Shown here: positions 26,220 to 64,000 of the stretch, in pieces
Numbering within the stretch: the stretch's first letter is position 1
Layout: every line of letters starts with the position of its first letter
Source of the DNA: Pimelobacter simplex
GTDB lineage: Bacteria; Actinomycetota; Actinomycetes; Propionibacteriales; Nocardioidaceae
Assembly (NCBI RefSeq): GCF_024662235.1
Contig: NZ_CP096277.1
Location: 46,948 to 110,947, forward strand
Direction of reading: 5' to 3'
Length of the DNA stretch: 64,000 nucleotides
Notes under the pieces: generated by a model
The model's input: only the letters and a program-made list of their open reading frames with translations
Databases searched by the model: none
What the model was told of the DNA's origin: nothing
Program-made: the position numbers and the translations under genes

Positions 26220-26247
26220 CGGCTTCGATGGTACGGAAACACAGGAA

Positions 26248-28665: not shown

Positions 28666-28671
28666 GACTCC

Positions 28672-28699
28672 ACTATACCCCCCTAGGGTATACGGTCAA
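28672..28699 (-). promoter_or_regulatory. copA promoter with CsoR-type operator
   Basis: On the minus strand TTGACC (28694-28699) and TATAGT (28672-28677) are 16 bases apart, a good vegetative promoter. A near-palindrome TATACCCCCCTAGGGTATA (28674-28692) fills the spacer, matching the ATACCC-GGGTAT form of CsoR copper-repressor boxes. The -10 lies six bases before the copA ATG, so the leader is very short. The -35 overlaps the stop codon of the upstream DUF305 gene. No csoR gene is visible in the window. Confidence 0.82.
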
Positions 28700-29370: not shown

Positions 29371-29428
29371 GGGGATTGCCCTTTCCGATGGGGGTCAGTT
29401 GCGGTGGTTGATGTCGCTCAGCTCGGCG

Positions 29429-29866: not shown

Positions 29867-29997
29867 CCCGCGGAAGTACCCGATATCCGTGCGGCTATGC
29901 GGATGATGCTCGTCCGGTTGGGTACAGACGTCAGGAGAGCGGCGGATCAAGAGCACCATGCCGGGATGACCTCGCCGCCGTAACTAGAGGAGGAACC

Positions 29998-30402
29998 GTG
30001 GCTCACACCAAGATGCTGGAGGCTTACCCGAAGGACTTGGGCAACATCGACAAGGAAAAGCTGGCCGAGTGCATCGCGGCCTGTTTCGAGTGCGCACAGA
30101 TTTGTACCGCGTGTGCCGACGCGTGTCTGTCGGAGGACATGGTCGCCGAATTGACCAAGTGCATTCGTACTGATCTCGACTGCGCCGACATCTGCGTCGC
30201 CACCGGGAACGCGTTGTCACGCCACACCGGGTACGACGCGAATGTGACCCGAGCGTTCCTGGAAGCCTGCGCGACCGCCTGCAAGGCATGCGGCGACGAG
30301 TGCGAAAGCCATGCCGACATGCACGAGCACTGCCGTATCTGCGCCGAAGCCTGCCGACGCTGCGAACAAGCCTGCCGCGACCTCCTCGCCAATCTGGCGT
30401 AG
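29998..30402 (+). CDS. four-helix-bundle copper-binding protein (DUF326/Csp-like)
   Basis: The 134-residue protein has 18 cysteines arranged in CxxxC/CxxC spacing along predicted helices (ECIAACFECAQICTACADAC and later CRICAEACRRCEQAC). This is the DUF326 / Csp copper-storage pattern, in which a four-helix bundle binds many Cu(I) ions in its core. GAGGAGG precedes the GTG start. It is divergent from the ArsR-type gene. IS copy 1 has inserted exactly at its stop codon, but the 8-bp duplication (TAGAGGTC) keeps the TAG intact. Confidence 0.9.
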   Translation: MAHTKMLEAYPKDLGNIDKEKLAECIAACFECAQICTACADACLSEDMVAELTKCIRTDLDCADICVATGNALSRHTGYDANVTRAFLEACATACKACGDECESHADMHEHCRICAEACRRCEQACRDLLANLA

Positions 30403-30407
30403 AGGTC

Positions 30408-35389: not shown

Positions 35390-35462
35390 CGTCGGCTTCC
35401 TTCCGGGTCAATGAGGTCGGGGTGGGTCGGCAGGGGGGTGAGGCGGATCGGGCGGCGCATCG

Positions 35463-45089: not shown

Positions 45090-46511
45090 GGTCAAGTCCG
45101 CTGGGGTGGTGTACGAGGTTGATCCCTCGGTTGGGCGTGTCGGTCAGGCTGTGAGGGCCTGGAGTTCGGGTTCGGTCACCTCCTCGACGACGCAGGTGTC
45201 GACGGCCTGGGCGCGGGCGAGGACGTCGAGTCCGAGGTAGCGGCGGCCTTCGGCCCACTCGTCGTGCTGCTCGGCCAGGACGGCGCCGACGAGCCGGATG
45301 ATGCTGGCCCGGTCGGGAAAGATCCCGACCACGTCGGTTCGCCTGCGGATCTCGCGGTTGAGGCGCTCGTTGGGGTTGTTGGACCAGATCTGGCGCCAGA
45401 TCTCCTTCGGGAACGCGGTGAAGGCGAGGATGTCGGCACGAGCGTCCTCCAGATGCTCGGCCACCTTGGGGAGCTTCTCGGCCAGGGCGTCGACGACCCG
45501 GTCGAACTGGGCGTGGACAGCGTCGGCGTCGGGCTGGTCGTAGATCGAGTGCAGCAGCGCCTTGACCCAGCCCCACGAGGACTTCGGCGTCGCCGACATC
45601 AGGTTCGCCGCGTAGTGGGTTCGGCAGCGCTGCCACGAGGCGCCGGGCAACGTGGCGCCGATCGCGGCCACCAGCCCGGCGTGGGCGTCGCTGGTGACGA
45701 GCTTGACCCCGGCCAGGCCGCGGGCGGTCAGATCCCTCCAGAAGGCCAGCCACCCGGCGCCGTCCTCGCTGCTGGTGACCTGCACGCCGAGGATCTCGCG
45801 GTGCCCGTCGGCGTTGACGCCGGTGGCGACCAGCACGTGGACCGGCACCACCCGGCCACCTTCGCGGACCTTGAGCACCAACGCGTCGGCGGCCACGAAG
45901 GTGAACGGCCCGGCCTCCTCCAGCCGTCGGGTGCGGAACTGCTCGACGTGCTCGTCGAGTTCCTTGGCCATCACCGAGACCTGGCTCTTGGACAGGCCGG
46001 TGATGCCGAGGGTCTGCACCAGCTTGTCCATCCGCCGCGTCGAGACGCCGAGCAGGTAACAGGTCGCGACCACACTGGTCAGTGCCCGCTCTGCTCGCTT
46101 GCGGCGCTCCAGCAGCCACTCGGGGTACAGCGAACCGGTGCGCAGCTTGGGAACCGCGACGTCCAGAGTGCCGACGCGGGTGTCGAGGTCGCGGTGCCGG
46201 TAGCCGTTGCGGGAGTTGACGCGCTCCATGCTGCGTTCGCCGTAGCCGGCGCCGCACACCGCGTCGGCCTGCGCCGAGAGCAGCGCATTGACGAACGTGG
46301 TGAGCAGGTCCCGCATCAGATCAGGACTGGCCTGGGACAGCTGCTCGTTCAGGAACTGTGCAGGGTCGATACTGGGTCCAGCGGTCATCGTCGTGGTCCT
46401 TCTTCGAGTCGGTTTTCGCAGATCACTCGAAGGATCCACCCGGTGGCCGCGCCTACGTTGGAGGCACGCGCTCACTCAGGTCCGTCGTACACCACTCTGC
46501 TGGACTCCACT
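45090..46511 (-). mobile_element. IS256-family insertion sequence, copy 2
   Basis: This 1422-bp element has the same ends as copy 1 and is flanked by 8-bp duplications GTGCCCGG (45082-45089 and 46512-46519). It is in the same orientation as copy 1, so the two form direct repeats that bracket the secretion core (31830-45089). It lies between two convergent genes and interrupts no recognisable gene. Confidence 0.95.
45144..46388 (-). CDS. IS256-family transposase, copy 2
   Basis: The translated protein is identical to that of copy 1, including the DDE motifs (AADALV, TSDAHAG, NERLNRE). The start is the ATG at 46388 behind GAAGGA. The gene is intact and may still be active. Confidence 0.93.
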   Translation of the reverse strand: MTAGPSIDPAQFLNEQLSQASPDLMRDLLTTFVNALLSAQADAVCGAGYGERSMERVNSRNGYRHRDLDTRVGTLDVAVPKLRTGSLYPEWLLERRKRAERALTSVVATCYLLGVSTRRMDKLVQTLGITGLSKSQVSVMAKELDEHVEQFRTRRLEEAGPFTFVAADALVLKVREGGRVVPVHVLVATGVNADGHREILGVQVTSSEDGAGWLAFWRDLTARGLAGVKLVTSDAHAGLVAAIGATLPGASWQRCRTHYAANLMSATPKSSWGWVKALLHSIYDQPDADAVHAQFDRVVDALAEKLPKVAEHLEDARADILAFTAFPKEIWRQIWSNNPNERLNREIRRRTDVVGIFPDRASIIRLVGAVLAEQHDEWAEGRRYLGLDVLARAQAVDTCVVEEVTEPELQALTA

Positions 46512-47320: not shown

Positions 47321-49117
47321 TGTGGCCCTCCGCCCGGCGAGCAGGCCTGGCGCTGCCCTCGGTTTCGAAGGTAGTTGGCGCCACCGACAGAACCGCGAGG
47401 CCCAAGCCCGACGCTCGTTGTGCAGAAGGGGACTACGCGATCGTCTGAACCGGCGGTGCCTCCGCCTTCCGCACTTGGACGACGTCGATGCTGAGAGCAG
47501 GCAGATTCAGGGGCTTCTCGAATCGGCGGCGGCATCGTCGCGCTGGTCAGTATCGTTCGAGTGCCACTAGCTAGGGCGACTTGGATCTGACGGGAGGAGG
47601 TCAACTGGTGCCTGGCCACCTTCACTCCCCCGTACCTGACCGCAAAGGGCACCTCGGGGAGCGGGCGTTCATCGAACGTCTCGTCGAACTGGGCGACACC
47701 CACACTCACGTCTGGGGTGATGTCGACTATCTGCCCAGTGGCGTTCCGGACATCGACGCGATCCTCGTCCACGAGGACCTGGCCTGCTTCAACATCGAAG
47801 TGAAGGCCGTTCCTCTCGATGCCGTCGAGGAGTTCGGACTCAAGGTTTGCCAGATCCGTGGCCGCAACGGCGGACACCACCCTGTGCTCCAGGCCGGTCG
47901 AGCCGTCACCGGTCTCGTCGCGTACGTCGGAACCACGGCGAACGTGCGAGCTCCATTCTTCTTCGCGACCGCGGCATTCCCGCTGATCAAGCGCAGTGAG
48001 TTCGCCGCGAGGTTCAGCGCAGCCCCGGTACGCCTGCAGGCCGAGGGCATGATCTTCGCCGACGACCTGGTCTCCTCAGACGCATTGCTCGGCCGGCTTC
48101 AGACCATCCGCGTCTCGCCACCGCACAAGGGATCACCACGTCGCGACATCGCGCCCACACCGGTCCAGGTAAAGGCTCTGCTCGAGGTGCTCGATCCCGG
48201 CTCACGCCCCGCTCCAACACGGGCGGACCGTGACCGCGGCGAGGTGCTACGGGTACGGGTCGGCGCTCCAGGCAAGACCGCCAGCTCATCTGGACCGGCG
48301 GCAAAGTACTTGACCCCAAGTAATCGAAAGCCGGTCGTGTTTCGGGGGGCGCCGGGGACTGGCAAGACGGTGCAACTGCAGGAGATCGCTGTAGCCCATG
48401 CTCGAGCCGGACGTCCCGTCCTCTTCACCTGCTACAACAAGGTGCTCGCCTCCACCTTGCGGGGCATCATGTCGACCCAGCGTCTTGGTGACGACGTCAA
48501 CAAGCGAGTCGTGGTGACGCACGTTGATGAGCTTGTGAATCAACTGAACGGTGACGACCGCGAGGCATTCCGCGGCCTCTTCGAGACGATCTGCGTCGAC
48601 GAAGCCCAGGACATGCCCCAGGAGCACTTCGACTTCCTCCGCGTCTTGGCGGCTGATGACGCAGAGTGGTTCCTTGCGGATGGTCCGGGCCAGGAACTGT
48701 ACGGGCCCGCGAACAAGACTGGCGAAGCTCCTCCCTTCGTGCAGCAGGCCCGCGCCGAGGGCTCAGTCGAGACGCTGCGCCGGAACTACCGCAACAAGAC
48801 AGCAAACTTCCTCTTCGCCCAAGCGGTGTACGAGCACGCCCCCAATACAGACGAGATCGCTGGGTGGGTCGCGAAACATCCGCTTCGGAGTGGGCCCAAC
48901 CCAGATGCGATGTTGGACCTTGGTGGAATTGAGTCGAATGCTGGTGGCGAGCTCCCCCGGATCGTTCGGATTGCGCTCCCCACCGGTCCCAGGACGAACT
49001 GGCAACAGGCCAAGTTGCACAGCTACGTCGCGATCTTCCATGAGGAGCTCGAGAAGCTTGCCGCCGAAGGAAAGCGGCGCGACCTGGCAATCCTCTGCGC
49101 AATGAGCGATAGCAAGA

Positions 49118-50539
49118 AGTGGAGTCCAGCAGAGTGGTGTACGACGGACCTGAGTGAGCGCGTGCCTCCAACGTAGGCGCGGCCACCGGGTGGATCCTTC
49201 GAGTGATCTGCGAAAACCGACTCGAAGAAGGACCACGACGATGACCGCTGGACCCAGTATCGACCCTGCACAGTTCCTGAACGAGCAGCTGTCCCAGGCC
49301 AGTCCTGATCTGATGCGGGACCTGCTCACCACGTTCGTCAATGCGCTGCTCTCGGCGCAGGCCGACGCGGTGTGCGGCGCCGGCTACGGCGAACGCAGCA
49401 TGGAGCGCGTCAACTCCCGCAACGGCTACCGGCACCGCGACCTCGACACCCGCGTCGGCACTCTGGACGTCGCGGTTCCCAAGCTGCGCACCGGTTCGCT
49501 GTACCCCGAGTGGCTGCTGGAGCGCCGCAAGCGAGCAGAGCGGGCACTGACCAGTGTGGTCGCGACCTGTTACCTGCTCGGCGTCTCGACGCGGCGGATG
49601 GACAAGCTGGTGCAGACCCTCGGCATCACCGGCCTGTCCAAGAGCCAGGTCTCGGTGATGGCCAAGGAACTCGACGAGCACGTCGAGCAGTTCCGCACCC
49701 GACGGCTGGAGGAGGCCGGGCCGTTCACCTTCGTGGCCGCCGACGCGTTGGTGCTCAAGGTCCGCGAAGGTGGCCGGGTGGTGCCGGTCCACGTGCTGGT
49801 CGCCACCGGCGTCAACGCCGACGGGCACCGCGAGATCCTCGGCGTGCAGGTCACCAGCAGCGAGGACGGCGCCGGGTGGCTGGCCTTCTGGAGGGATCTG
49901 ACCGCCCGCGGCCTGGCCGGGGTCAAGCTCGTCACCAGCGACGCCCACGCCGGGCTGGTGGCCGCGATCGGCGCCACGTTGCCCGGCGCCTCGTGGCAGC
50001 GCTGCCGAACCCACTACGCGGCGAACCTGATGTCGGCGACGCCGAAGTCCTCGTGGGGCTGGGTCAAGGCGCTGCTGCACTCGATCTACGACCAGCCCGA
50101 CGCCGACGCTGTCCACGCCCAGTTCGACCGGGTCGTCGACGCCCTGGCCGAGAAGCTCCCCAAGGTGGCCGAGCATCTGGAGGACGCTCGTGCCGACATC
50201 CTCGCCTTCACCGCGTTCCCGAAGGAGATCTGGCGCCAGATCTGGTCCAACAACCCCAACGAGCGCCTCAACCGCGAGATCCGCAGGCGAACCGACGTGG
50301 TCGGGATCTTTCCCGACCGGGCCAGCATCATCCGGCTCGTCGGCGCCGTCCTGGCCGAGCAGCACGACGAGTGGGCCGAAGGCCGCCGCTACCTCGGACT
50401 CGACGTCCTCGCCCGCGCCCAGGCCGTCGACACCTGCGTCGTCGAGGAGGTGACCGAACCCGAACTCCAGGCCCTCACAGCCTGACCGACACGCCCAACC
50501 GAGGGATCAACCTCGTACACCACCCCAGCGGACTTGACC
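49118..50539 (+). mobile_element. IS256-family insertion sequence, copy 3
   Basis: This 1422-bp element has the same ends as copies 1 and 2 but the opposite orientation. Its 8-bp duplications are TAGCAAGA (49110-49117 and 50540-50547). It interrupts the NERD-helicase gene between the helicase core and its C-terminal motifs. Confidence 0.96.
49241..50485 (+). CDS. IS256-family transposase, copy 3
   Basis: The protein is identical to those of copies 1 and 2 over all 414 residues. ATG 49241 follows GAAGGA. It reads in the same direction as the gene it interrupts, so some downstream transcription of the helicase fragment is possible. Confidence 0.93.
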   Translation: MTAGPSIDPAQFLNEQLSQASPDLMRDLLTTFVNALLSAQADAVCGAGYGERSMERVNSRNGYRHRDLDTRVGTLDVAVPKLRTGSLYPEWLLERRKRAERALTSVVATCYLLGVSTRRMDKLVQTLGITGLSKSQVSVMAKELDEHVEQFRTRRLEEAGPFTFVAADALVLKVREGGRVVPVHVLVATGVNADGHREILGVQVTSSEDGAGWLAFWRDLTARGLAGVKLVTSDAHAGLVAAIGATLPGASWQRCRTHYAANLMSATPKSSWGWVKALLHSIYDQPDADAVHAQFDRVVDALAEKLPKVAEHLEDARADILAFTAFPKEIWRQIWSNNPNERLNREIRRRTDVVGIFPDRASIIRLVGAVLAEQHDEWAEGRRYLGLDVLARAQAVDTCVVEEVTEPELQALTA

Positions 50540-51252: not shown

Positions 51253-52011
51253 TTACTGATCCCCTCGCTCTTCGATGGCAACAGGAGCGGCCTCGACTCG
51301 ATCGAGTCCAAGGAGGTTCCCAAGCTCCGCCAGGATGTCGCCCTTGAGCACCGACGGGTTCGCCTCGACGGCCTCGATGATGCTCCGGACCTGCTGCGGC
51401 GGTAGCTCCGCCAGTGTCTGTTGCAACTCAGCGAGACCCTCGCCGTCAACGATGTTCGCATTGGCTACGAGGTTCATCTGCTCATCGCTGAAAGCTCTGG
51501 CGGCGAGCGCCGCAAGGTAGCGCGCCTGCGCCTCGGCGCTGCTCATGTTGGTGCGGTAGTCCTCAGAGGCGACAGCGAGTTCCTGACCCGAGTCAACGAC
51601 GGTGGCTTCAACCGTGACGGGGTTCCTCGCCGCTGCCTTGAGAGCCTTGCGTGCCGCTCGCTTGGCTTTGCGCGCCTCGATGGCTGGGAGGGCCTTCTCC
51701 AGCCAGAAGCGCTTGGCGTGGGGCGTAGCAACCGCAACGAGCAGCACCACCACCTTCGCAATCAGCTCGGCGTTCTCCTGGCGCTCACGCTCGCGCTGAC
51801 GCTCGTACTCCGCGTCGTACACGTAGACCGGCTCGTAGATGACGACGGGTTCCGCGGCCGCGTCTTCCTGTTCGTCGTCGGGGATGAAGCGCGCGCTTCC
51901 CTTGAGGTTGCCCTCGCTGTCGAAGAGGTTCTGATGAAGACCGCCCTCCTTCTTCTTGCCAGGTGTCAGGTCGTCATCGTCGTACTCGTAGCGCCCCTTG
52001 ATGCTAGCCAC
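51253..52011 (-). CDS. hypothetical protein with single membrane helix
   Basis: The 252-residue protein begins ASIKGRYEYDDDDLTPGKKKEGGLHQNLFD, has an acidic and Tyr-rich stretch, then a coiled segment (ERQRERERQENAEL), one weak membrane helix (about residues 86-100) and a helical C-terminal half (LAALAARAFSDEQMNLVAN). No family is recognised. GTG 52011 was chosen because GGAGG stands six bases upstream; earlier in-frame starts lack this. It is downstream of the McrBC-type operon on the same strand but separated by a terminator. Confidence 0.65.
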   Translation of the reverse strand: MASIKGRYEYDDDDLTPGKKKEGGLHQNLFDSEGNLKGSARFIPDDEQEDAAAEPVVIYEPVYVYDAEYERQRERERQENAELIAKVVVLLVAVATPHAKRFWLEKALPAIEARKAKRAARKALKAAARNPVTVEATVVDSGQELAVASEDYRTNMSSAEAQARYLAALAARAFSDEQMNLVANANIVDGEGLAELQQTLAELPPQQVRSIIEAVEANPSVLKGDILAELGNLLGLDRVEAAPVAIEERGDQ

Positions 52012-52243
52012 GCGACACCTCCGGGCTGAGTGCGGCCAACCCCGCACCAGCCGGGATTCGCACCTGAGGAGTCATGGCGCCGACTGTACTTGCGGCCGCC
52101 GACCCGAATCGTCCGAATGCCAGCCCGGCCGACCTCACGGCGGACCGCTCGTCGGGCGCGGCCAGCGGCTCGACGCCCTCTCGAAGTGGCCGTGTTTCCG
52201 GTTCCCCTGTGCCGCGAGGACGGACGTGCTCTACTTGGGGTCA

Positions 52244-52275
52244 GAGCCCCAGGTGACCCGAGACGCCTGGGGCTC
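52244..52275 (-). terminator. hairpin terminator of the McrBC-type operon
   Basis: A perfect 10-bp stem GAGCCCCAGG/CCTGGGGCTC (52244-52253 with 52266-52275) has a 12-base loop. It lies 35 bases past the stop of the endonuclease-VII-like gene and ahead of the next minus-strand start at 52011. No long T-run is seen. Confidence 0.65.
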
Positions 52276-52309
52276 TCCTCATTGCCGAGGCCGGAGTGAA
52301 CCACCTCGC

Positions 52310-53083
52310 TCAGCCGCTCACGACCGCGGTCGCAGGCAGCCCCGCCGACTCCAATAGGCCCACGAAACGCTGACGACGGGCGGCGTACCTTCTGCTGTGG
52401 AGCTCAGTCCTCCAGCGGGGGTAGGTGATCGCCAGGGCTCGTGCCGGTGGGTCACCGAGGTAGTGCGAGAAGCGGCAACCTGATAGGTGCGGGCACAGGT
52501 CGACGACGGTGTTGCAGCTCGTGCACAGATAGCCGCGGACCTGTCCGGTGAAGTGATCGTGGTCGATCTTCGTCGCCCAAGGGTCTGGACACGTCGCGCA
52601 TCCCGACCCCAGCGCCTCGATGAGCTGTCGACGCACGGAAGCCCGTGCGTCCCGAGCAGTGGGCGGCGCGGGCCAGCGGCCGGCCGCTCGAGTGCAGCGT
52701 CGCTCGAGCGGCACTTGGGCGACGTCCACCACGGCCTCTCCGGTGCCGAACCTGACCTGAGCCTCGCACCATTCGGATCTGGTGCCCGACCCGAGGCAGA
52801 CCGAGCGGCCGCCGGCGAAGAGGTGGAAGCTGCCCGAACCGTCCGGCATCGCACGGTCACCGTAGGTCAGGCCCGCTTGCAAGGCGCAGGTGTCGAGCAA
52901 CTCCTCGAGCGGCTTGTGCACGTTGACCGTCGCTGCCGAGCTGAGCCGCCAGAGCAGGTTCTCCCGTCGTCCCGGAGGTAGTTCCAGCACGGTGCGTGCC
53001 TTGCGTTGCCCCTCCTCGCTGGTGGAGGGAGGGACGCGTCCCGCGGTCTCACTTGGGTCGATCTCAGGCACTCTGCGTGACAT
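52310..53083 (-). CDS. endonuclease-VII-like HNH protein
   Basis: The 257-residue protein ends in a recombination-endonuclease-VII (His-Me finger) domain: CATC (162-165), IDHDHFTGQVRG (173-184), LCTSCN (186-191). Two CxxC pairs hold the zinc and the central His-Asp-His is the catalytic strand. The N-terminal 140 residues are not recognised. I start at ATG 53083, which overlaps the McrC stop by 20 bases; a longer TTG start at 53131 is less likely. As the last gene of the defence-like operon it may cut foreign or branched DNA. Confidence 0.75.
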   Translation of the reverse strand: MSRRVPEIDPSETAGRVPPSTSEEGQRKARTVLELPPGRRENLLWRLSSAATVNVHKPLEELLDTCALQAGLTYGDRAMPDGSGSFHLFAGGRSVCLGSGTRSEWCEAQVRFGTGEAVVDVAQVPLERRCTRAAGRWPAPPTARDARASVRRQLIEALGSGCATCPDPWATKIDHDHFTGQVRGYLCTSCNTVVDLCPHLSGCRFSHYLGDPPARALAITYPRWRTELHSRRYAARRQRFVGLLESAGLPATAVVSG

Positions 53084-54365
53084 CGTCGGCCTGTCCGAGG
53101 CTTTGCTGGAGCGCGGCCCGTGCGCCGGCAACCAGCTTGTCGAATCCCCCGGCTTGGGCGAGGCCCTGGACTTGGACCTCGTACGCCGTGATCGTCAGAT
53201 CGTCGACCTTGACTTCATCGAACGACTTCCACTCCCCCAGCGGCAGTTGGTCGGGTGCGCTCAGCGCGGGGTAGAGAAGATTCATGGTGCCCGCGCCGGA
53301 CGCGCTGAGGAACGCCAACGACTCGTAAACGTCAGCTGAGCTGATGCTGGGTGTCCGCCCGAGTCGGGTCTTGTACTTGGCGTCGAGGAGAAGACTGGCG
53401 TCGGCGCCGGCCAGAGGGGTGATGTCTGGGGTGGCGTAGACCGGTTGCGTGCCGCGATGGCCGAGGACCCAACGCATCTGCCCAACGACCTTGTGATCCG
53501 GCAGCGCCCGCCGCACGACCTCCTCGCACAGCGATTGCCATGCTGACCATGTCGACAGTAGGAATCCGGGGCCGGTGAACGCGCCGCCGTCGAGGTTGAG
53601 GCCCAACCCCTCGACGACGAGGCGCGCGAGGTCATAGGCCTGCTGCCAGCCGCGGTGACGGACGGGCAGTGGCGGGAACACGGCCGGCGGGTTCATCTGG
53701 GGGGCCAACTGGCGGCCGAGGAGTCTGAGTTGTGCTTGGGTGTCGACGTCCGAGACCTCGGGTGTCAGGGTCGCGACGGCCGCGGCCAGGGTTGCGTTGT
53801 AGGGGTTGCGGCGGGTCAGTTCCAGGCGGGATACCTCGAAACCGTCGGGATCCGGCAACACGAGGGTCTCCCACTCCACGTCGCCGTCGATCGCGAAGTC
53901 GGTACTGGTTGTTCGACGGTAGGAGCGGATGGGGCGGCGCTCATTCTCGGCGTGGAGGTTGAGCAGAGACCTGGCGATCAGTGTTGCGAGGTCACCGCGG
54001 TCCTGGGTACCTGCGGAGATTTCATCGTGGATCAGAAGATGGCCGGTTCGGACGAGCACGGCGAGCAAGAAGAAGTCCGCACGCCAACCGCTCGTCGACG
54101 GGTCCAGGAACTTGGGTACTACCTCAAGTTCGACGTTGGCGTTGAGGCGAAGCAGGCCGGCGACGCCGTCCGCCTTCCACGTCCCGCCGGCTGTGGTGGT
54201 GATGGGGTCATTCTCGTACCCGAGCAGCGTCTTGACGCGGTCGTTCAACTCGCGCAACTGGATGAGGACTTCACCCTCGCTGATGCCGCTCAGCTCTGCG
54301 ACCTCACCGGTTGTTCCCGGCCGCTCGGTGAGCTCTTGGAGCACGAGCCGGTCCATGGCCGTCAC
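53064..54365 (-). CDS. mcrC: McrC-like nuclease subunit
   Basis: The 433-residue protein matches the McrC family: LLRLNANVELEVVPKF (about 71-86) in the N-terminal half and a PD-(D/E)xK site in the C-terminal half, PDITPLAGADASLLLDAKYK with D314, D328 and K330. McrC cleaves DNA when driven by the McrB translocase. The first 45 residues look like a winged-helix (RPGTTGEVAELSGISEGEVLIQLRELND). The start overlaps the McrB stop by four bases, so the two subunits are coupled. Confidence 0.88.
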   Translation of the reverse strand: MTAMDRLVLQELTERPGTTGEVAELSGISEGEVLIQLRELNDRVKTLLGYENDPITTTAGGTWKADGVAGLLRLNANVELEVVPKFLDPSTSGWRADFFLLAVLVRTGHLLIHDEISAGTQDRGDLATLIARSLLNLHAENERRPIRSYRRTTSTDFAIDGDVEWETLVLPDPDGFEVSRLELTRRNPYNATLAAAVATLTPEVSDVDTQAQLRLLGRQLAPQMNPPAVFPPLPVRHRGWQQAYDLARLVVEGLGLNLDGGAFTGPGFLLSTWSAWQSLCEEVVRRALPDHKVVGQMRWVLGHRGTQPVYATPDITPLAGADASLLLDAKYKTRLGRTPSISSADVYESLAFLSASGAGTMNLLYPALSAPDQLPLGEWKSFDEVKVDDLTITAYEVQVQGLAQAGGFDKLVAGARAALQQSLGQADDVTQSA

Positions 54366-55471
54366 TCGGTGGCGATGAGGGCGAGGAGCTTGTAGAGCTC
54401 CTCGGAGGTCGGCCGGAGGGGACCGGAGATTCGTCGCACCGTCTGCCCGGCGAAGGTGGACTCCTCCAACGAGTACACGCTCTTGCTGTTCTCGGCGCGC
54501 AGCACGTCGGAGACGGCTCGGGTGTTCCCGTAGAAGACCTCGTCGATGTGGCCGCGGATCGTCGCCCAGGCGGTGGCGACGTACTCCTGCGCGGCGCCGA
54601 CCGCGGACTCCGCGGATGCGTGCATCAGGGCGCCGTGGCCGAGCTGATAGGCCTGCCCCCTTCCCAGGAGTACTTGCTCGTTGATCTTGGTGAATGCCTG
54701 GGCGAGTGCCTCGTAGTAGTCCTCGGCGCTTGACGGGGTCTCGGGTAATGGGGCAGGTGTCGGGTCGAGGCCGAGGTGTTCGCGCAGCACGCTCGTTTGC
54801 GGCTCGAGGCGGTGGATATGGAACCGGCGCAGGAAGGCGACGTCGAGTGGTTCGACGCTCGTATCGGCCTCGTTCATCGCTGCCAGGAGATAGAGGTCAT
54901 GAGGCAGAGCGAACGATTCGTGTTCGCCACCGTCACCCAGGATCTCGAAGAACTGTGTGGTCTCAGTGGCCGTGCCGTCAGTCGGCATGCGCTTGTCTGC
55001 CTCCAGGCCAACCAGCGCACTTCCGAACGCAGCAACAGCCGGCCCGCGGTTGATCTCGTCGACGAGGACGAGGGCGGCATTGCCGTCGTGGCCAGCGTGC
55101 ACCGCAGCCCGGTAGAGCGTCCCGCTGGTCACCACGAATGCTCCGGCCTCACCGACCTTGGGGACGAGGCCGCGCATGAAGTCGCGGTACTTCGTGTTCT
55201 GGTCGAAGACCGTTTGGAACACGGCGCGGGTGACGTCCTGATCGGGGCTTGGAAACCATGGAGGGATCGGCCCCGAGGATGCCGGGATGGGGATCCGGCC
55301 GGTCGGAGCTGAGCCCGTTGCGCCCTGCTTCCACTGGAAGAGCTCGCGGACCTCGTTGAGCAGCCGTGACTTCCCGGTACCTGGCGGACCAGTGATGATG
55401 ACGTTCTTGCGGGTCGCGAGCGCTTTCAATACGGCGCGGGCGTCGGGGCTGATGTCGGCCTCAGTCGGCAT
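54362..55471 (-). CDS. mcrB: McrB-like AAA+ GTPase/ATPase
   Basis: The 369-residue protein has Walker A GPPGTGKS (28-35), Walker B LVLVDEINRG (134-143) and the McrB signature MNEADTS (199-205, compare MNTADRS). It is only the motor; the N-terminal modified-base-reading domain of classical McrB is missing. DNA recognition may therefore come from another subunit in the operon. ATG 55471 is preferred over 55489, since it starts at the motor domain; both overlap the upstream stop. It is coupled to mcrC. Confidence 0.88.
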   Translation of the reverse strand: MPTEADISPDARAVLKALATRKNVIITGPPGTGKSRLLNEVRELFQWKQGATGSAPTGRIPIPASSGPIPPWFPSPDQDVTRAVFQTVFDQNTKYRDFMRGLVPKVGEAGAFVVTSGTLYRAAVHAGHDGNAALVLVDEINRGPAVAAFGSALVGLEADKRMPTDGTATETTQFFEILGDGGEHESFALPHDLYLLAAMNEADTSVEPLDVAFLRRFHIHRLEPQTSVLREHLGLDPTPAPLPETPSSAEDYYEALAQAFTKINEQVLLGRGQAYQLGHGALMHASAESAVGAAQEYVATAWATIRGHIDEVFYGNTRAVSDVLRAENSKSVYSLEESTFAGQTVRRISGPLRPTSEELYKLLALIATE

Positions 55472-56024
55472 GGCAGTAGCCCGTCCCATCGGTGAAGTTG
55501 TAGTAGCCCTGGACAGTCCGGGTCCCGTTCCGTAGTGCTGCCGAAGCCATGCAGCTGAGGATCGCGCTGCTGACCTCAGTTGCCCAGAGGCCCTTCTTCT
55601 TCAGGTCGTCCTCGTAGGCGTAGTCGCATCGCACGGTGCCGTCGTCGAACTTGCTAAGCAGCAGGAACACCCGGCCCCTGTCTGTCGCGGGGAGTTGCCC
55701 GCCGAGTGCGGGGCTGGCGTGCACCTTCGCGATCCGGTCCTCAGCGGGTCGAGCGGACGTGGCCGGCCAATACTCCAGCTGGGTGCGTTGGGGTTGGTCG
55801 TTCTCATCCAAGAAGGTCACGTCAGCGACCCTGATCTCCCGGCCCCCTCGCCCGACGGCGTCCTTGGTGAAGATTTGCCGCATGATCGGACGGAACGTCT
55901 TCCAGGGCAGTCGGAGATCCCTCGCCCCACCACCGGTCTGCGAGTCGTTCGACTCGGCCAGGAGCTTGCGGATATCTCCGCTCACAATCTCCTTGTACAC
56001 GAACAGCACAGGACGGGCACTCAC
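55461..56024 (-). CDS. unknown protein of the McrBC-type operon
   Basis: This 187-residue protein lies between the large methyltransferase (9 bases upstream) and mcrB (overlapping). It begins SARPVLFVYKEIVSGDIRKLL and later has TQLEYWPATSARPAEDRIAKVH, RVFLLLSKFDDGTVRCDYAYEDDL and RTVQGYYNFTDGTGYCHAD. It looks like a compact alpha/beta protein; no motif is recognised. AGAGG precedes the GTG start. Because McrB here has no DNA-reading domain, this protein is a candidate for that role. That is inference only. Confidence 0.72.
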   Translation of the reverse strand: MSARPVLFVYKEIVSGDIRKLLAESNDSQTGGGARDLRLPWKTFRPIMRQIFTKDAVGRGGREIRVADVTFLDENDQPQRTQLEYWPATSARPAEDRIAKVHASPALGGQLPATDRGRVFLLLSKFDDGTVRCDYAYEDDLKKKGLWATEVSSAILSCMASAALRNGTRTVQGYYNFTDGTGYCHAD

Positions 56025-56033
56025 GCGGAACCT

Positions 56034-58172
56034 CTACACGTACTCGGCGGGGACGTAGGGGCTCGCCCCTCTTTCGCGAGCATTCTCGCGGCGCTGCCCG
56101 CTCGGATGTGTGACATCCAGAATGTTCGCGAGTTCCGCGAGGACACAATCGGCGGTGACGGTCGAGCGACTCTCCCCCGCGAGGGCGGGCTGGCCGCGGT
56201 CCAGCAGCGGGAAGTCCCGGAGCACGGTTTCCAGGTCACTGCAGCTGAGCCCCCACGAGGCTGCGACGAGCGCGTCCGAGCGCGCACGCCACTGACCGAC
56301 CTCCCAGGGGCTGCTAGCACTGTCCCCCTCCGCGGCCGTCAAGCGGCGCGCGAGGCTCACGAGTTCCCGGCCGGTCTCTGAGTCGTCGTTGATCCTCGGC
56401 AGAGGGAGTGTGTCGAGCAGGAAGAAGTTGACCGTCGTGGTGACGATGCGGCGCAGCATCCAGTCGACGACCAGCGAGTTCGCCAGCGCGAGGAACAGGT
56501 CCTCCCGATCCTCATCACCCGACTCGAAGGCAAGGGTCGGCACCTTGTTGCCGCAGACGACGTCGGCGGGGACGCGGGCCGCCAGCAGGGAGCGCTCGTT
56601 GGTTTGGCCAGTGATGTCGCAGAACCCGATCCGCGATCGTGTGGTGCGGTCGATCGTTGCCGGGTGCATTGCGCTGGCTGGCACGTGCCACTGGGTTCGT
56701 AGGAACGTGTCTGACAACGGCTCAGGCCGCCATATCGCGGCTCGACCTTCACCTGACTGATAGGTCTTGGCACGCCAGCGGTATTGCGCGACATGGCGCC
56801 CCTCCAGCAGCGGCATCGTCCCGTCACCAGGTTCGCGCCGGAAAGACTTCTGGTCGAGGGTCATGTCGACCTCACGGCGATACTCCGGATGCCACGGTCC
56901 TCCCGGGTCGCCGATCGTGGTCGCGTTCTTCGCGAGTCGCGAGTACAGGTCCCACTCCTCGGCCGTGCGAACCTCAGGGATGCTGAGGTCACCGCGGACC
57001 CGTGCCAGTTGGGCCCGGCTCAGCCTGACCGGTGTGTTCGGCAGGGCCCCGGCGCGGTCTGCCACTTTGAGCGCGATGGGCTTCTGTGGGCCGGTTCCGA
57101 TACGCGCGACGACCGAGAGGAACTTGAAACGGGTGTCGATGGCGAAGTTCCGTGCGCGATTCTCGATGACCGAAATCGAGAGCTCGCGGGCAAGGGCATT
57201 GAGCTCGCGGCGCAAGCTCTCGGTGCCTTGGGCCCGAATCAGGCCGGCGGGCAGGAGCAGCGCGAGGACACCGCCTTCGGCGGCGATCCCCATACCGAGC
57301 TCCAGGAAGAGTTTGTAGAGGTCGTGCTCGCCGCGGCCTTGGAGTCGAGTCCCGGTTGCGACATGCTCGATGTAGGTGAGGAGGGTTGAGCGGTGCTGTG
57401 CAAGGTCGACGTCCTCGTCGTAGCTCTGGCCGTAGGCGCGGGCGGCTCCCTGGCTCTTCGCGAGCTCGTGTCGTGAGACCTTGAGCTTCTCCCAAGGGGG
57501 ATTGCCGATCACGAGAGCCGCGCCGGTCGGTGCGAGCTCGGCCCAGGATGTGGAGCTGCGCAAGCTGTCCTGCACGACGAGTCGATCGGCGAAGCCGCGG
57601 ATCGCGTCGAGGTCGCTGGTCAGGCTGGCCACCGAGAGGAGCGCTCCGCGCAAGGCCCGGGCGGAAAGATCGGCACCGACAAGCTTGTCGCGGATGATTG
57701 CGTCTCGCCGTGCACCCTCTGGCATCTGCATCGCCGCCGCGGCGAGCAGGACGCCAGATCCGCAGGCGGTGTCTACCCAAGGCCCTTGAGCCTTGACGGC
57801 CGGCACACTCGTGCTCGCAAGGAGCTCAGCAAGGCGCCAGTCGGTGTAATACGCGCCGGTCTTTCGCTGCTGGCTGGCGGGGAGGACTTCCCGGCTCAGC
57901 GCGGACAAGGCGAGCGCCGTTGGGATTGGCGTGTCCGCGATACTGGCGAGAACCTTGTCCGCCCAGGGCGTTGGGTCCGACCGCACGGCAGACCTGTCCC
58001 TGTCCAGGGCATCCCAGAAGTCCTCGAGACGCCAGCCGCCGGTGACTGCAGCCGCCGCCTCGAGCACCGTCAGGCGGGCGTCGGTTCGGTCGGCATCTGG
58101 GCAGACATCGGACGCTGCCTGCTCGAGCAGCTGGTCGGCGTTGCCGAGGAGTCGCTGCTCGAGGCTCTTCAT
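56034..58172 (-). CDS. Eco57I/type-IIG-like N6-adenine methyltransferase
   Basis: The 712-residue protein carries KTGAYYT (104-110), the SAM-binding motif DTACGSG (134-140), a second motif LVGADLS (164-170) and the catalytic NPPW (224-227). The second half (about 380-700) should be the target-recognition and helical region. It most likely methylates adenine in host DNA to protect it from the linked nuclease. No nuclease motif is visible at its N-terminus, unlike true type IIG enzymes. Its ATG overlaps the D12 stop by four bases, with no ribosome site, so translation is coupled. Confidence 0.85.
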   Translation of the reverse strand: MKSLEQRLLGNADQLLEQAASDVCPDADRTDARLTVLEAAAAVTGGWRLEDFWDALDRDRSAVRSDPTPWADKVLASIADTPIPTALALSALSREVLPASQQRKTGAYYTDWRLAELLASTSVPAVKAQGPWVDTACGSGVLLAAAAMQMPEGARRDAIIRDKLVGADLSARALRGALLSVASLTSDLDAIRGFADRLVVQDSLRSSTSWAELAPTGAALVIGNPPWEKLKVSRHELAKSQGAARAYGQSYDEDVDLAQHRSTLLTYIEHVATGTRLQGRGEHDLYKLFLELGMGIAAEGGVLALLLPAGLIRAQGTESLRRELNALARELSISVIENRARNFAIDTRFKFLSVVARIGTGPQKPIALKVADRAGALPNTPVRLSRAQLARVRGDLSIPEVRTAEEWDLYSRLAKNATTIGDPGGPWHPEYRREVDMTLDQKSFRREPGDGTMPLLEGRHVAQYRWRAKTYQSGEGRAAIWRPEPLSDTFLRTQWHVPASAMHPATIDRTTRSRIGFCDITGQTNERSLLAARVPADVVCGNKVPTLAFESGDEDREDLFLALANSLVVDWMLRRIVTTTVNFFLLDTLPLPRINDDSETGRELVSLARRLTAAEGDSASSPWEVGQWRARSDALVAASWGLSCSDLETVLRDFPLLDRGQPALAGESRSTVTADCVLAELANILDVTHPSGQRRENARERGASPYVPAEYV

Positions 58173-59236
58173 GCGAGGGCCGCCGACTGACTGACTTCGA
58201 GGAAGCGTCGGTCCAACCGAACCGGGTTGATCTCGATGACGTACTCGTTGACCGTGTCGCCGCCGGCTGACGCCTGCGCGTTAGGCCGGTAGCGGCCGAT
58301 CGTCTTCACCTCGTGGAGCGTGACTTTGCCAGCCTCGCTGAGTGCATTGATCAAGTGGTGTTGCGGCACGTGTCCCTCATTGCTGTAGCTCAGCAGAATC
58401 TGCCGGGCAGTGGTGCCCATGACAAGTCGCGTGAGCGCGTCGAGGGCTCGGGTCTTATAGCAGAAGTCCGAGGCCTTCTCCTTCCATGGCCTCAGCCCGG
58501 TCACGCCATCGACCTCGGGAGCATCACCGGCATGAATGGTCTCAAGCAAGTGGTAGTAGGCGCTGTACTGCCGCTTGGTGTAGGGCGGGTCGAAGTACAC
58601 GGTGTCCGCGGAGGTGGTGCTCAGCTCGAACACATCACCCACCGAGGCCTGGAGATCGGTGGCCCCGTCAGCAAGTGGCCGAGGGGCCACACGAATGTCG
58701 CGAAGAGCGGTCGACGACCAGTTCTTGAGAAAGCAGCCGTAGGTCCCAGAGATGTTCGCGACGCGGTTGGCAGCTTGGAGGAGATCGGCCAGCAGCAGCT
58801 GCTCCTCGACCCAGGTGAGTTCGCCGGCCCGCGACCAAACCCCGATCTGGGCCCGCATCGCATCGATGCGGGCGGCGTTGGCTTCGGTGAAGTAGCGTCG
58901 CTCAACCGCGCCACGGGCCGCGGAGGCCGGGCTGTACGCCTCGTGAATGAAGCCCGGACGGCCGGGAACGGCGTTCAGCGCCTCGACAGCCGCCGTATAG
59001 CTACCCAAGGCCTCGAAGCGCACGTTCTCGCTTGCGACTGTGGCTCCGACGGTCATCGCGACGGCCGACGGTAGCGAGTCGTTCACCGTGACGCGCCATT
59101 CGCGCGCGGCGGCCACCGCCGCAACTGCGCCCGTGCCGCAAAATGCGTCCACGAAGCGGCCCTCCATGGGCCGTCCCGCGAGGTCGAGAATGGCGTCCGC
59201 TACCCGGGCCTTGCTACCGATGTAGCGCACGCTCAC
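58169..59236 (-). CDS. D12-class adenine DNA methyltransferase
   Basis: The 355-residue protein has motif I FVDAFCGTG (28-36), NDSLP (52-56) and the catalytic DPPY (216-219), as in Dam-like D12-class N6-adenine methyltransferases. It heads the operon of two methyltransferases, an unknown protein, mcrB, mcrC and an HNH nuclease. AGGAGG precedes the GTG start at 59236. The target sequence cannot be read from the protein. Upstream, 59237-59411 should contain the operon promoter, but I see no clear -35/-10 pair. Confidence 0.9.
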   Translation of the reverse strand: MSVRYIGSKARVADAILDLAGRPMEGRFVDAFCGTGAVAAVAAAREWRVTVNDSLPSAVAMTVGATVASENVRFEALGSYTAAVEALNAVPGRPGFIHEAYSPASAARGAVERRYFTEANAARIDAMRAQIGVWSRAGELTWVEEQLLLADLLQAANRVANISGTYGCFLKNWSSTALRDIRVAPRPLADGATDLQASVGDVFELSTTSADTVYFDPPYTKRQYSAYYHLLETIHAGDAPEVDGVTGLRPWKEKASDFCYKTRALDALTRLVMGTTARQILLSYSNEGHVPQHHLINALSEAGKVTLHEVKTIGRYRPNAQASAGGDTVNEYVIEINPVRLDRRFLEVSQSAALA

Positions 59237-59411
59237 GTAGTCCTCCTAGGTGTGTCGCCCCCCGCGAATCGCTGCTGGCTCCGGGACCAAATGGGCAGCT
59301 TCAGGCTAGCCGTCTGGGCACTGGCGCCCGCGGACCGTTCACGCACCGGCGCGTCCACTCTCCCCTAGCTGATCGTGCCTGACGAGCGGCCGCCGCCGGC
59401 TGAAATCGCGC

Positions 59412-59442
59412 GCCCAGGTGCTCATTGCGTTAGCACCTGGGC
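59412..59442 (-). terminator. hairpin terminator after secreted-protein operon
   Basis: A perfect 11-bp stem (59412-59422 with 59432-59442) with a nine-base loop overlaps the stop codon of the secreted protein gene at 59422. It marks the end of the minus-strand transfer operon and the right border of accessory block B. Confidence 0.75.
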
Positions 59443-60363
59443 CTCTCCGATGCGGATCGGGAGCGGGTCGGTGGTCAGGTCGAACTCGATGGTTCCGGAC
59501 TGGCCGCCGCCGGTCCACTCGACAACCCAGTGGCTCGTGGCGGTGACCTGGTAGGCGCCGTCGGGCTGGTCCGACGACATCTTCGCGTAGCGGTGGCCGC
59601 AGGTCGGCGAGGGCTGCTTCCCGTAGTGATCTGCGTACGGTGTGCCCTTGCCAGTGCAGGTCACCTTGGTGCCGTCGCCCATGTTCCACACGATGCTGGA
59701 GACGCTGGCGGTCGCGCTGACCGAAACCGATCCCTCGCTCGCGGAGCGGGTGATCGGACCGAACGTGTCCTCAGTCGGGCTGTCGACCCACATCCATACC
59801 GGGAGGCCGACCAGGCCGGCGCGGTTGGCGCCCGACTCGGGAACGATGCCGATCTCGATCGGGTCCAGGTCCATCGAGGCGATCGCACGCTCGGCGAGGA
59901 CCACCGGGTCGATGCCGACCTCACCGGTCTCGATCCACATGTACTCCCACGATGAGCCCGGCGGCGGGAAGTAGCAGACATGCCACCAGCCGTCCTCCTT
60001 GGTCTGACCATCCGGCGGGACCATGTCGTCCGGTCCCCTCGCCCCGATCCAGCACTTGTACTTGCTACTCCAGACCGAGCCTTCCGGGCCGGTGCACGGG
60101 ATCTCGTTGCCGGCGTAGGTACAGGTCGAAGAACCCCCGCCGCCGGGATCTTCGTTACCGCCCCCGCCATCGCCGGGGTCCTCGCAGACGAGCTTGACTT
60201 CCCCGGTGTTCGGGTCCGTTTCGTACCAGCAGTTCTCGCCGCCAGCAGCTGCGGCTGGTGAAGATGAGCCGACCACGACCAACGCCGCCGAGGCGAAGAT
60301 CATGGCGAGTGCCCGCGCTAGCACGGCTGATCCCAGAGCACGTTGGAGCTCGTTACGAGCCAC
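59422..60363 (-). CDS. secreted protein with PKD-like beta domain
   Basis: This 313-residue exported protein has a signal peptide (cleavage near SSSPAAAA, about residue 40), a Gly/Asp/Pro-rich linker, cysteine-containing segments (CWYETDPNTGEVKLVCED) and a C-terminal beta domain (SVSVSATASVSSIVWNMGDGTKVTC, partly PKD-like with NMGDG). The 5' end overlaps the preceding gene by 46 bases; a GTG at 60324 or ATG at 60303 could be the true start. Related secreted proteins occur in actinobacterial transfer clusters. Their role is unknown, perhaps at the cell surface. Confidence 0.75.
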   Translation of the reverse strand: MARNELQRALGSAVLARALAMIFASAALVVVGSSSPAAAAGGENCWYETDPNTGEVKLVCEDPGDGGGGNEDPGGGGSSTCTYAGNEIPCTGPEGSVWSSKYKCWIGARGPDDMVPPDGQTKEDGWWHVCYFPPPGSSWEYMWIETGEVGIDPVVLAERAIASMDLDPIEIGIVPESGANRAGLVGLPVWMWVDSPTEDTFGPITRSASEGSVSVSATASVSSIVWNMGDGTKVTCTGKGTPYADHYGKQPSPTCGHRYAKMSSDQPDGAYQVTATSHWVVEWTGGGQSGTIEFDLTTDPLPIRIGEAQVLTQ

Positions 60364-61172: not shown

Positions 61173-64000
61173 TCAGCTCGCGAGCCAGCCGTGCGTACGG
61201 ATGATGGTCTTCGTGCGTTCCGACAGTTCCATGGGGGCGTCGCCGTCGTCGGACCGGTTGCAGATCTCCTCGCGCAGGATCCGGTCGGCCTCGAGCTGGT
61301 CGCCCTCGGCCTTCATGACGTGCGCCAGGCACAGACGGGTGCTCTCGCCGTCGGGGTCGGCCCGGTTGGCCACGTAGGCCGCGGAGCGGGCCTTGACCAG
61401 GTCGCCGGCTGCGAGTGCCTCGGTGACGACGATGAGCGCGACGTCGGCGATCCAACCGGCGGCCATGAGGTCGACGCGGTCGGGCTCGTTGGCCAGCCAG
61501 GACCATCCCTCCTCGCGCAGCTGGCTGAACGGCTGGGCCTCCCCGACCAGCTCGAGCGCGGTGCACAGGTCTGCGACGCCTTCGGCGCCCCCTCGGGCCT
61601 GGCCGCGCTTGCGGAGCCGGAGGAACAGATCCAGGTCGACGAGCAGGCCGTCGTCGACCTGGTAGACGTTGACGCCGGTGACCTTCGCGGCCGGTGCCTT
61701 GTCGGCGTAGGGAAGGTGGTCCTCGCCGGTGCGGGGGTTGGTGCCGAGCCAGTCGCGGACGATGTTGGTGTAGTCGCGCACCTTGCCGTCGGAGATCGAG
61801 AAGGCCTCGCGGATCTGCTCGCGGGTGGCGCCGTGCTTGCGGTGCAGGGCGAGGAACGCCAGCAGCTCGGTGAAGTACGGCTTGCGCTTGGCCAGGGCCT
61901 TGCCGTGGGCGCGTGCTGCGACCGGTCCGAGCAGGGTGAGCCGGGGCCGGTCGCAGGTGGGTGAGAACCAGTCGGCGATGTCCTGGTCTAGGTCGGGGTC
62001 CTTCTCCTCGACCTCGGCGCGGACGTGAGCCGGCACCTTGGGCGCGAGCGCCTCGAGGTCCTCCTGCACGATCGCGCTCTCGCGGATGTACTCCTCGTCC
62101 TGACCCTCGAGGAGGGAGGACATCGGCTCGTCGACGGCGTCCTCGGGGGTGTTGCGCGGCAGGGTGTACTCGCGGCGCAGAGCCCCGGAGGAGTCGGTGT
62201 AGGCCTCCCATCCGTCGGTGGCGGTCTCGTCCACCGGGGTGTCGACGTACTCCGGGGTCTCGCTCTGGGCGTAGACCAGGGCGCAGCCGCGGGCCTCGTC
62301 GCTGGTGAGGCCGACGGCGATGAGGTTGAGGCCGGCGTGCTCGAGGACGACGCGGCCGGTGTTGGTCATGTGCAGCACCGCGCCCGGGGTGTTGGGGCGT
62401 TCGCCTGCGACGACGATGGAGGTTGCCGACTGTCCGACGTGGTCGTTGACCAGCTGCAGCAGCTGCTCGAGGTCATCGGGATCTCCGGCGGCGGCGTCGA
62501 CCAGGAGCATCCGGGCGGGCCAGGTGTCGTCGTCGACGCTGCCGGTGCGGGCCGTGGACACGTCGGTGTCGTGGCGCTTGGCCCGGTCGACGGTGGTGAC
62601 CGCGGCCGCGAGGATCTCCGCGGTTGCCGGCGACCCGGTTGCTCCGGTCGGGTAGAAGCTGATCCGCTCGTCCATGGCGACGGTCTCCTCGGCCACGCCG
62701 ATGCAGTCGACCTGCACCCGCCGCGACCAGGGGTTCACGGCCAGCTGGGCGGCGAGGTGGCGGGCGAGGTCGCGGCCGTAGGTGGGGTCTCCGCTGATGG
62801 TGAGGGTGGACAACTCCTCGCAGTTCAGCAGCCATGTCTCGCCGGTGTCGCTCATGCCGATGGTGGCCAGCAGCGGGTAGGGCGGCTCGACGTTGTCGGT
62901 GTCGGGACCGAGCTGGTCGACGTCGGTGTCCGTGGTGACGTGCCAGTGGGTCTGGTCGGGGCTGCCTACCCAGGGCGCGGGGATGGTGGCCGGCGCGCTG
63001 AGGTGCAGGGTCAGCTTGCCGTGCCCGAGCTCCACGGCCGCGAGCGGCGGCATCGTGGTGCCCTGGGCGCCGACGGCGGCCGCGAGGCGACGCAGCGCCT
63101 CGTCGGCGAACTCCACGGTGGCGGCCGCGGCGGCGCCGGTGGCGTTCAGGGTCATCTCCACCGGCGCGAGTTCCGGCGACGGGGCGGCGATCGCGCGGCC
63201 GGGCGGCCGGTTGCGGAACGCGGTGCGACGGCGTGAGCGCAGGGCCATCAGCAGGGCCCCGGACAGCAGCACGCCCCCGCCGGTGAGACCGGCGAGGACC
63301 CAGGGTGCCTCGAGGATCGAGTCGTCGCTGTCGTCGGCCTGGTCGACCTCGGCGGCTGCCGGCTCTTCGGCCTGGGGCGGTGCGACCTCGGGTGCCTCAG
63401 TCTCGGGTGCCGCAGTCTCGGGAACCTCCGGCACGTCGGGCTCCTGGACGACCGGCGGCTTCTCCTCGGCCGGCGGGTCGAGGGGCTGCTGGTCCTCGGG
63501 GCTGGCGGGGTTCTCGGGCTCGACCTCACGCGGCTGCTGCTGGTTGTCGGCATCGGGGATGTTGAGGGTCCAGCCGACGTCGATGACGTCGGGGTCGGTC
63601 AGCTGCACTCCGCCGGGCTGGGCGATTCCGGTGGAGGCCTGGTAGATCTCCGGCCACCGATCGGCGTCACCGAGCTGCTCCTGTGCGATCTCGCTGAGGG
63701 TGTCGCCGGCCTGGACGCCGTACTGGTGTGCGGCGGCGTCCTTGACCTGAGGCGCGGGCAGCTTGAGCACCCACCCGGGTTCGAGGAAGCTCGGCTGCGT
63801 GCCGAGCAGGTCGCGGTTGAGCTCGGCGATCTCCTTGTACCTGGCTCCGTCGCCGAAGTGGTCCTCGGCGATCGACCAGAGGCTCTCCCCCGGCTTCACG
63901 GCGTGATCGACGGTCTTGGGCGCCTGGCGCTCCTGCTTCACCTCGACCTTGACGTCCTGCTGCACGGGGGCCTGGTCGACGGCGGCGGCGTGGACGTGGC
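61173..64000 (-). CDS. LysM-membrane-BTAD protein, 5' end beyond window
   Basis: At least 941 residues are visible and the frame stays open to the right edge, so the N-terminus is missing. From the GTG at 63965 on, two LysM domains (about 18-70 and 78-135; GESLWSIAEDHFGD and GDTLSEIAQEQLGD) are followed by a Pro/Glu-rich linker and a membrane helix (about 215-240). A large region of unknown fold comes next, then a C-terminal winged-helix/BTAD-like part (RPRLTLLGPVAARAHGKAL, REQIREAFSISDGKVRDYTNIVRDWLG). It may link the cell wall to a transcription-like domain. Confidence 0.8.
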   Translation of the reverse strand, partial: HVHAAAVDQAPVQQDVKVEVKQERQAPKTVDHAVKPGESLWSIAEDHFGDGARYKEIAELNRDLLGTQPSFLEPGWVLKLPAPQVKDAAAHQYGVQAGDTLSEIAQEQLGDADRWPEIYQASTGIAQPGGVQLTDPDVIDVGWTLNIPDADNQQQPREVEPENPASPEDQQPLDPPAEEKPPVVQEPDVPEVPETAAPETEAPEVAPPQAEEPAAAEVDQADDSDDSILEAPWVLAGLTGGGVLLSGALLMALRSRRRTAFRNRPPGRAIAAPSPELAPVEMTLNATGAAAAATVEFADEALRRLAAAVGAQGTTMPPLAAVELGHGKLTLHLSAPATIPAPWVGSPDQTHWHVTTDTDVDQLGPDTDNVEPPYPLLATIGMSDTGETWLLNCEELSTLTISGDPTYGRDLARHLAAQLAVNPWSRRVQVDCIGVAEETVAMDERISFYPTGATGSPATAEILAAAVTTVDRAKRHDTDVSTARTGSVDDDTWPARMLLVDAAAGDPDDLEQLLQLVNDHVGQSATSIVVAGERPNTPGAVLHMTNTGRVVLEHAGLNLIAVGLTSDEARGCALVYAQSETPEYVDTPVDETATDGWEAYTDSSGALRREYTLPRNTPEDAVDEPMSSLLEGQDEEYIRESAIVQEDLEALAPKVPAHVRAEVEEKDPDLDQDIADWFSPTCDRPRLTLLGPVAARAHGKALAKRKPYFTELLAFLALHRKHGATREQIREAFSISDGKVRDYTNIVRDWLGTNPRTGEDHLPYADKAPAAKVTGVNVYQVDDGLLVDLDLFLRLRKRGQARGGAEGVADLCTALELVGEAQPFSQLREEGWSWLANEPDRVDLMAAGWIADVALIVVTEALAAGDLVKARSAAYVANRADPDGESTRLCLAHVMKAEGDQLEADRILREEICNRSDDGDAPMELSERTKTIIRTHGWLAS

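Follow-up and report, generated by a model that had tools for sequence, protein, structure and literature searches.

Gene content of the locus

The 64,000-nucleotide stretch of DNA from the soil bacterium Pimelobacter simplex analysed here (the window) carries six consecutive genes on its minus strand, running from position 59236 down to 52310, which encode two DNA methyltransferases (MTases), a small protein of 187 residues (gene 3), an McrB-like and an McrC-like protein and an endonuclease VII-like protein (Table 1). The original prediction, made from the sequence alone, described six tightly spaced genes on one strand, and all of the open reading frames (ORFs) are present as it described them. 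The family matches bear out its McrB and McrC assignments, and both MTases match adenine-specific families in Pfam and NCBIfam, in keeping with its proposal of two N6-adenine-type enzymes. The first MTase gene overlaps the second by 4 bases and a gap of 9 bases separates the second from gene 3. Gene 3 overlaps mcrB by 29 bases (11 with the RefSeq start of mcrB), mcrB overlaps mcrC by 4 bases (or lies 5 bases from it with the RefSeq start of mcrC) and mcrC overlaps the endonuclease VII gene by 68 bases (8 with the RefSeq start of the latter). A scan for promoters and terminators found 0 and 2, respectively, which is not above the result for shuffled sequences.

Table 1. Genes of the locus, with positions in the window. 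Motif counts refer to 11 distinct systems, the window included.
Feature	Positions	Strand	Evidence
MTase 1, D12-class N6-adenine DNA methyltransferase, 355 amino acids	58169-59236	-	Pfam MethyltransfD12 2e-27; DPPY and motif I in 11/11 systems
MTase 2, Eco57I/Alw26I-like N6-adenine DNA methyltransferase, 712 amino acids	56034-58172	-	Pfam Eco57I 1e-5; NPPW in 11/11 systems
Gene 3, B3-fold protein, 187 amino acids, probable free-standing sequence-recognition subunit (predicted)	55461-56024	-	Structure model
Short McrB-like AAA+ NTPase, 375 amino acids (RefSeq start 55471)	54362-55489	-	AAA_5 1.2e-12; Walker A, Walker B and NxxD in 11/11 systems
McrC-like nuclease, 433 amino acids (RefSeq start 54356)	53064-54365	-	Pfam McrBC 5.7e-14; PD...DAK in 11/11 systems
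Endonuclease VII-like HNH gene, 273 amino acids (RefSeq start 53071), longest ORF	52310-53131	-	Pfam Endonuclease_7 4.5e-11

MTase 2 is weak against the family models, although its motifs are intact. It scores 26.1 bits against the Pfam Eco57I model, barely above the cut-off of 25.3, and its match to NCBIfam TIGR02987 (Alw26I/Eco31I/Esp3I-type adenine MTases) has an E value of 1.1e-26 but reaches 93.7 bits where 353.5 are required. Because this match falls so far below the cut-off of the model, no recognition motif was guessed from the Alw26I family. The McrB-like protein similarly matches the NCBIfam McrB model at 1.5e-13, but with 50.3 bits against the 637 required. No Pfam family matched gene 3. 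According to PADLOC, MTase models match genes 1 and 2 and there are weak matches for gene 4 (McrB), with no match for genes 3, 5 and 6. We took McrB as the 375-residue form rather than a 357-residue form from the second possible start. Its Walker A motif begins at residue 34, placing the AAA domain almost at the start of the protein and leaving no room for an N-terminal DNA-reading domain. The McrC of this locus is the sole McrC-family match in the genome.

A conserved five-gene cassette

The conserved unit consists of five genes rather than six: the D12 MTase, the Eco57I/Alw26I-like MTase, the 187-residue protein, the short McrB and McrC. The six proteins were searched by tblastn against 14 loci, the window's own record included, and all five core genes were found in 12 of them; the remaining two (L012 and L017) represent opposite ends of a single circular Sphingobium plasmid, on which the five genes are complete when the ends are combined. 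Copies of the same system were merged, namely L023 with L011 (five identical proteins) and L012/L017 with L016 (three identical proteins, with gene 3 identical over 192 of 195 residues and McrC over its first 347). This left 11 distinct systems: the window, Aeromicrobium flavum, a Citrobacter plasmid together with Escherichia coli CFSAN051542, E. coli KFu015, Sphingobium TomTYG74, Sphingomonas/Sphingobium baderi and five IMG/VR contigs. The gene order is the same throughout, and since it recurs in 10 distinct systems besides the window the arrangement is not due to chance. The search for this order in other genomes, which had been proposed as a check of the original prediction, thus succeeded for five of the genes. 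The McrC ORF of L016 has 367 residues where that of L017 has 427, and the L016 record may contain a damaged copy.

The DPPY, NPPW, Walker A, Walker B, NxxD (here NEAD) and PD...DAK motifs are all kept in the 11 systems, and Walker A fits GxxxxGK(S/T) in every one, L016 included. The five genes appear to evolve together: when their distance matrices for the 11 systems are compared, all ten protein pairs correlate with r of 0.88-0.99 (Mantel test with 2,000 permutations, p of 0.0005 for each pair). Gene 3 is both the most divergent of the five proteins (mean identity 0.38) and the least congruent (r of 0.88-0.89). A hypervariable recognition region was sought in both MTases using 40-residue blocks (mean identity 0.26-0.72 in MTase 1 and 0.30-0.66 in MTase 2) but no clear specificity block was seen, and for this reason we make no claim that the site differs between systems.

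Gene 3 is predicted to be a B3-fold protein

Gene 3 gives a confident structure model with the B3 pseudobarrel fold. In structural comparison the model is matched best by DNA-recognition domains of the B3 type, those of LlaJI.R1 and BfiI among them. A sequence profile of the gene 3 family gave 0 matches to solved structures up to an E value of 10, and Pfam searches with 23 family members returned five families with one member each (best E value 0.025). The original prediction had left this gene as an unknown subunit; it is indeed unnamed by Pfam, but the fold of the model now allows a likely role to be assigned. Judging from the model, gene 3 is most likely a sequence-reading subunit that is free-standing rather than fused to McrB. 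We tentatively suggest that such a separate, non-covalently associated B3 subunit could read the target in a role comparable to that of HsdS in type I systems, that the motor may leave the reader behind at the site and that the same arrangement might explain the third restriction ORF of the McrBC-related systems LlaI and BsuMI.

Plant transcription factors make up many of the B3 structural matches, controllers are common in restriction systems and the start of McrC appears helix-turn-helix-like by eye; the B3 protein might then be a transcriptional regulator of the operon, with specificity residing elsewhere, for example in McrC. We regard this as very unlikely, as the prokaryotic matches are recognition domains of restriction enzymes and each of the 11 systems has gene 3 placed after its MTase genes and before those of the nuclease. 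A better candidate for a controller is another small conserved ORF, which precedes MTase 1 in four of the 12 other loci searched (L011, L015, L023 and L024). This ORF (L024:18352-18591 and L015:5402-5662) overlaps the start of MTase 1. It is present in Enterobacteriaceae and in a single Sphingobium copy of the cassette, and a search of the window did not find it. It has no Pfam match, looks ribbon-helix-helix-like by eye and may be a controller.

The endonuclease VII gene

The original prediction counted endonuclease VII as a component of the system, which the comparison does not support: the tblastn search matched it in one of the 14 loci, the window's own record. It was found beside none of the 10 other systems, in each of which 3.8-12 kb of DNA beyond mcrC was covered; this absence refers to the other 13 loci and not to the DNA around the metagenomic B3 relatives nearest to the window. 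Endonuclease VII matches 15 plasmid records, 14 besides the window's own, and in the six of these 14 that were viewed no McrBC gene is annotated within 5-9 kb of it. These observations make it quite improbable that the locus encodes a system of six components, with endonuclease VII as a further functional nuclease acting for instance on branched or cleaved intermediates after McrBC. In its favour, an MTase is annotated within about 4 kb in three of the six viewed relatives (L029, L030 and L031), and the 8-base overlap with mcrC (RefSeq start) on the same strand makes co-transcription of the two genes likely. The endonuclease VII gene is probably a local addition rather than part of the core.

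Proposed mechanism

We consider the cassette, with a probability of about 0.8, to be a type II-like McrBC restriction-modification system that acts on an asymmetric site and is blocked by modification. This reading is built on the computed gene set, motifs, B3-like fold, conserved order and congruent divergence, from which we infer that the site is asymmetric and has A in both strands, that each strand has its own MTase and that the B3 protein docks on McrB, and likewise translocation, the identity of the nucleotide used and a function in phage defence. The two MTases would protect host DNA by adenine methylation, each acting on a different strand of an asymmetric recognition sequence; such a site is suggested by the presence of two adenine MTases of different classes, and two MTases serve an asymmetric site in LlaJI as described in passages of PMC12707154. 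The B3 protein would bind the same site when it is unmethylated and, once bound, would recruit or activate a ring of the short McrB. By analogy with McrBC and LlaJI, McrB would then move along the DNA by nucleotide hydrolysis and McrC would cut it. The logic put forward in the original prediction, in which host DNA is marked and unmarked DNA is cut, is supported as the best inference.

McrBC proper is methylation-dependent, and passages of PMC7680126 describe an N-terminal YTH domain that targets the McrB of Thermococcus gammatolerans to DNA containing N6-methyladenine. A type IV-like activity would follow this pattern, with McrBC cutting DNA that carries foreign adenine methylation and the MTases being incidental or epigenetic. 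We judge it extremely unlikely: the MTases not only occur beside McrBC in each of the 11 systems but diverge with it, the cassette McrB has no N-terminal domain, and the B3 domain of LlaJI, according to passages of PMC12707154, reads unmodified sequence. Further B3-carrying restriction enzymes besides LlaJI do the same. A type IV McrBC classification was likewise rejected, as it calls for the absence of a cognate MTase and for an N-terminal modified-base-binding domain on McrB, where this operon has two MTases and an McrB that opens with the AAA domain.

Comparison with known systems

The idea of a modification-blocked McrBC is already known, LlaI, BsuMI and LlaJI being a recognised family. 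Passages of PMC2614495 describe them as an McrBC-related type II subfamily whose members cut DNA that is unmethylated and occur together with two type IIS MTases. The cassette has the McrB-like NTPase and McrC-like PD-(D/E)xK nuclease of this subfamily, with motifs intact in all 11 systems, and two MTase genes in each, which would serve the two strands of one shared site. Short McrB proteins from three-ORF cassettes are given in parts of PMC1459862 (LlaIB, 337 residues; BsuMIB, 343 residues). Gene 3, the 375-residue McrB and McrC correspond to such a set of three restriction ORFs, judged on ORF count and size.

The LlaI methylase has a FokI-like two-domain form and acts on adenine. The BsuMI MTases are cytosine-5 enzymes, whereas those of the cassette are adenine-type. 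LlaI, from the conjugative Lactococcus plasmid pTR2030, resembles the cassette in its McrBC-like restriction of unmodified sequence, its 337-residue McrB and its three restriction genes, which the partial sources place in an operon with the methylase; the latter is called a 'type II A methylase' in a reference title in PMC3990576. The original prediction held that the adenine version matches no named system, and LlaI runs counter to this claim. It differs in having, going by a reference title, a single methylase gene (llaIM) against the two unrelated MTase genes here. BsuMI of Bacillus subtilis shares the three-ORF restriction cassette, with a 343-residue McrB, and the type II-like McrBC subfamily (passages of PMC1459862 and PMC2614495).

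LlaJI (Lactococcus pNP40; Helicobacter pylori) has two MTases, an McrB/McrC-like pair, an asymmetric unmodified site and B3 recognition, as in the reading proposed for the cassette. Reading of DNA by a B3 domain in LlaJI systems is described in parts of PMC12707154 and PMC7680126, and the gene 3 model provides such a domain. Its MTases are C5 enzymes and its B3 domain lies at the N-terminus of the 585-residue R1, in contrast to the adenine-type MTases and separate B3 protein of the cassette (passages of PMC1459862 and PMC7680126). Assignment to LlaJI in the strict sense was rejected on both counts: the recognition domain is not fused to McrB, the genes being separate in 11/11 systems and Walker A lying so close to the N-terminus, and neither MTase is a C5-cytosine enzyme by its family matches. 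MADS, the gene set mad1-mad8, was rejected as well; there were weak partial matches of mad2 on both MTases (3.9e-8 and 2.6e-6) and of mad8 on McrB (5.4e-4), and none on the remaining six proteins scanned. PcaI is an McrBC-like restriction enzyme that attacks unmethylated DNA, but with one Dcm-like MTase and a CCNGG site, and a separate reader gene is not reported in the available passages of PMC8989522. CglI and NgoAVII carry out NTP-driven restriction of an asymmetric site (passages of PMC5737866), but with a superfamily 2 (SF2) helicase-like motor in place of McrB; the term B3-like also occurs in the text on them. A similar operon in Clostridium cellulovorans is noted in part of PMC11779793, and a 2024 census, in the passages available, calls MTase-associated McrBC a 'particularly prevalent' association or branch and defers it to a later publication (PMC11090510).

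The original prediction would have been refuted by a gene order unique to this strain, which the other systems exclude, or by an already catalogued family; the wider LlaI/BsuMI/LlaJI family is catalogued, but a name for this five-gene set was not found in the open-licence papers searched, going by their listings and the passages seen. As far as our searches show, novelty lies in the gene set, in the assignment of gene 3 to B3 and in the mobile distribution across phyla.

Distribution and mobility

The cassette is sparse yet crosses phyla on mobile DNA. Positions 52000-59500 of the window match plasmid pA-N39 of P. simplex N39 (NZ_CP097985.1, 110,939 bp, circular) with 100% identity over 7,501 bases. 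Gene 3 matches five of 72,556 plasmid records and 0 of 50,697 phage records; with McrB alone, the matching records in the same plasmid set number 206. Relatives of gene 3 number 157 by single-sequence search and 729 by profile search, the best 120 of each being listed. The Citrobacter cassette DNA matches five of 5,426 E. coli genomes, four at 99% or above and one at 87.8%; of the three contexts viewed, two lie inside a conjugative-element gene cluster and one in an island with an integrase beside ssrA. Genome surveys, each including the window's own genome, gave matches in 2/391 (order), 1/396 (phylum) and 1/394 (class), the second match in the order being the Aeromicrobium locus already counted. 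On the IMG/VR contig L020 the cassette is bracketed by two genes, at L020:2166-3731 and 11539-12801, of which one is phage replication O-like and the other has matches among phage DNA methyltransferases (ParB/DNA-methyltransferase-type); prophages may therefore carry the cassette. A recombinase gene lies near the cassette on the IMG/VR contig L022.

Elsewhere in the window, a MobF relaxase and type IV secretion-like genes are found at about 3793-9702 and 32349-37460; the plasmid is nevertheless classed as non-mobilizable in PLSDB. Three genes for IS256 transposases, all under one protein accession, lie at 30462-31706, 45144-46388 and 49241-50485, and two of these copies flank a NERD-domain helicase gene (47608-49176), an arrangement that resembles a composite transposon with defence-like cargo. 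A heavy-metal (copper-type) resistance island occupies about 17615-31706 and ends in a tyrosine recombinase on one side and in an IS256 gene on the other. In the window (61173-63965, minus strand) as well as in Aeromicrobium (L009:2725-6216), the cassette is preceded on its own strand by a gene for a large LysM-domain protein, hinting at a common insertion place or element.

Significance

In its logic the cassette appears to follow LlaI, BsuMI and LlaJI, but its two MTases are adenine-type enzymes of different kinds and its predicted B3 reader stands alone. Copies sit in E. coli chromosomes, two of the three viewed being in a conjugative-element cluster, and the system is therefore testable in a standard laboratory host. 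The analysis proposes a concrete role for the small gene that had lacked an explanation in this McrBC-type restriction cassette, which is sparse but crosses phyla, and the B3 assignment suggests a possible function for the third ORF in LlaI and BsuMI.
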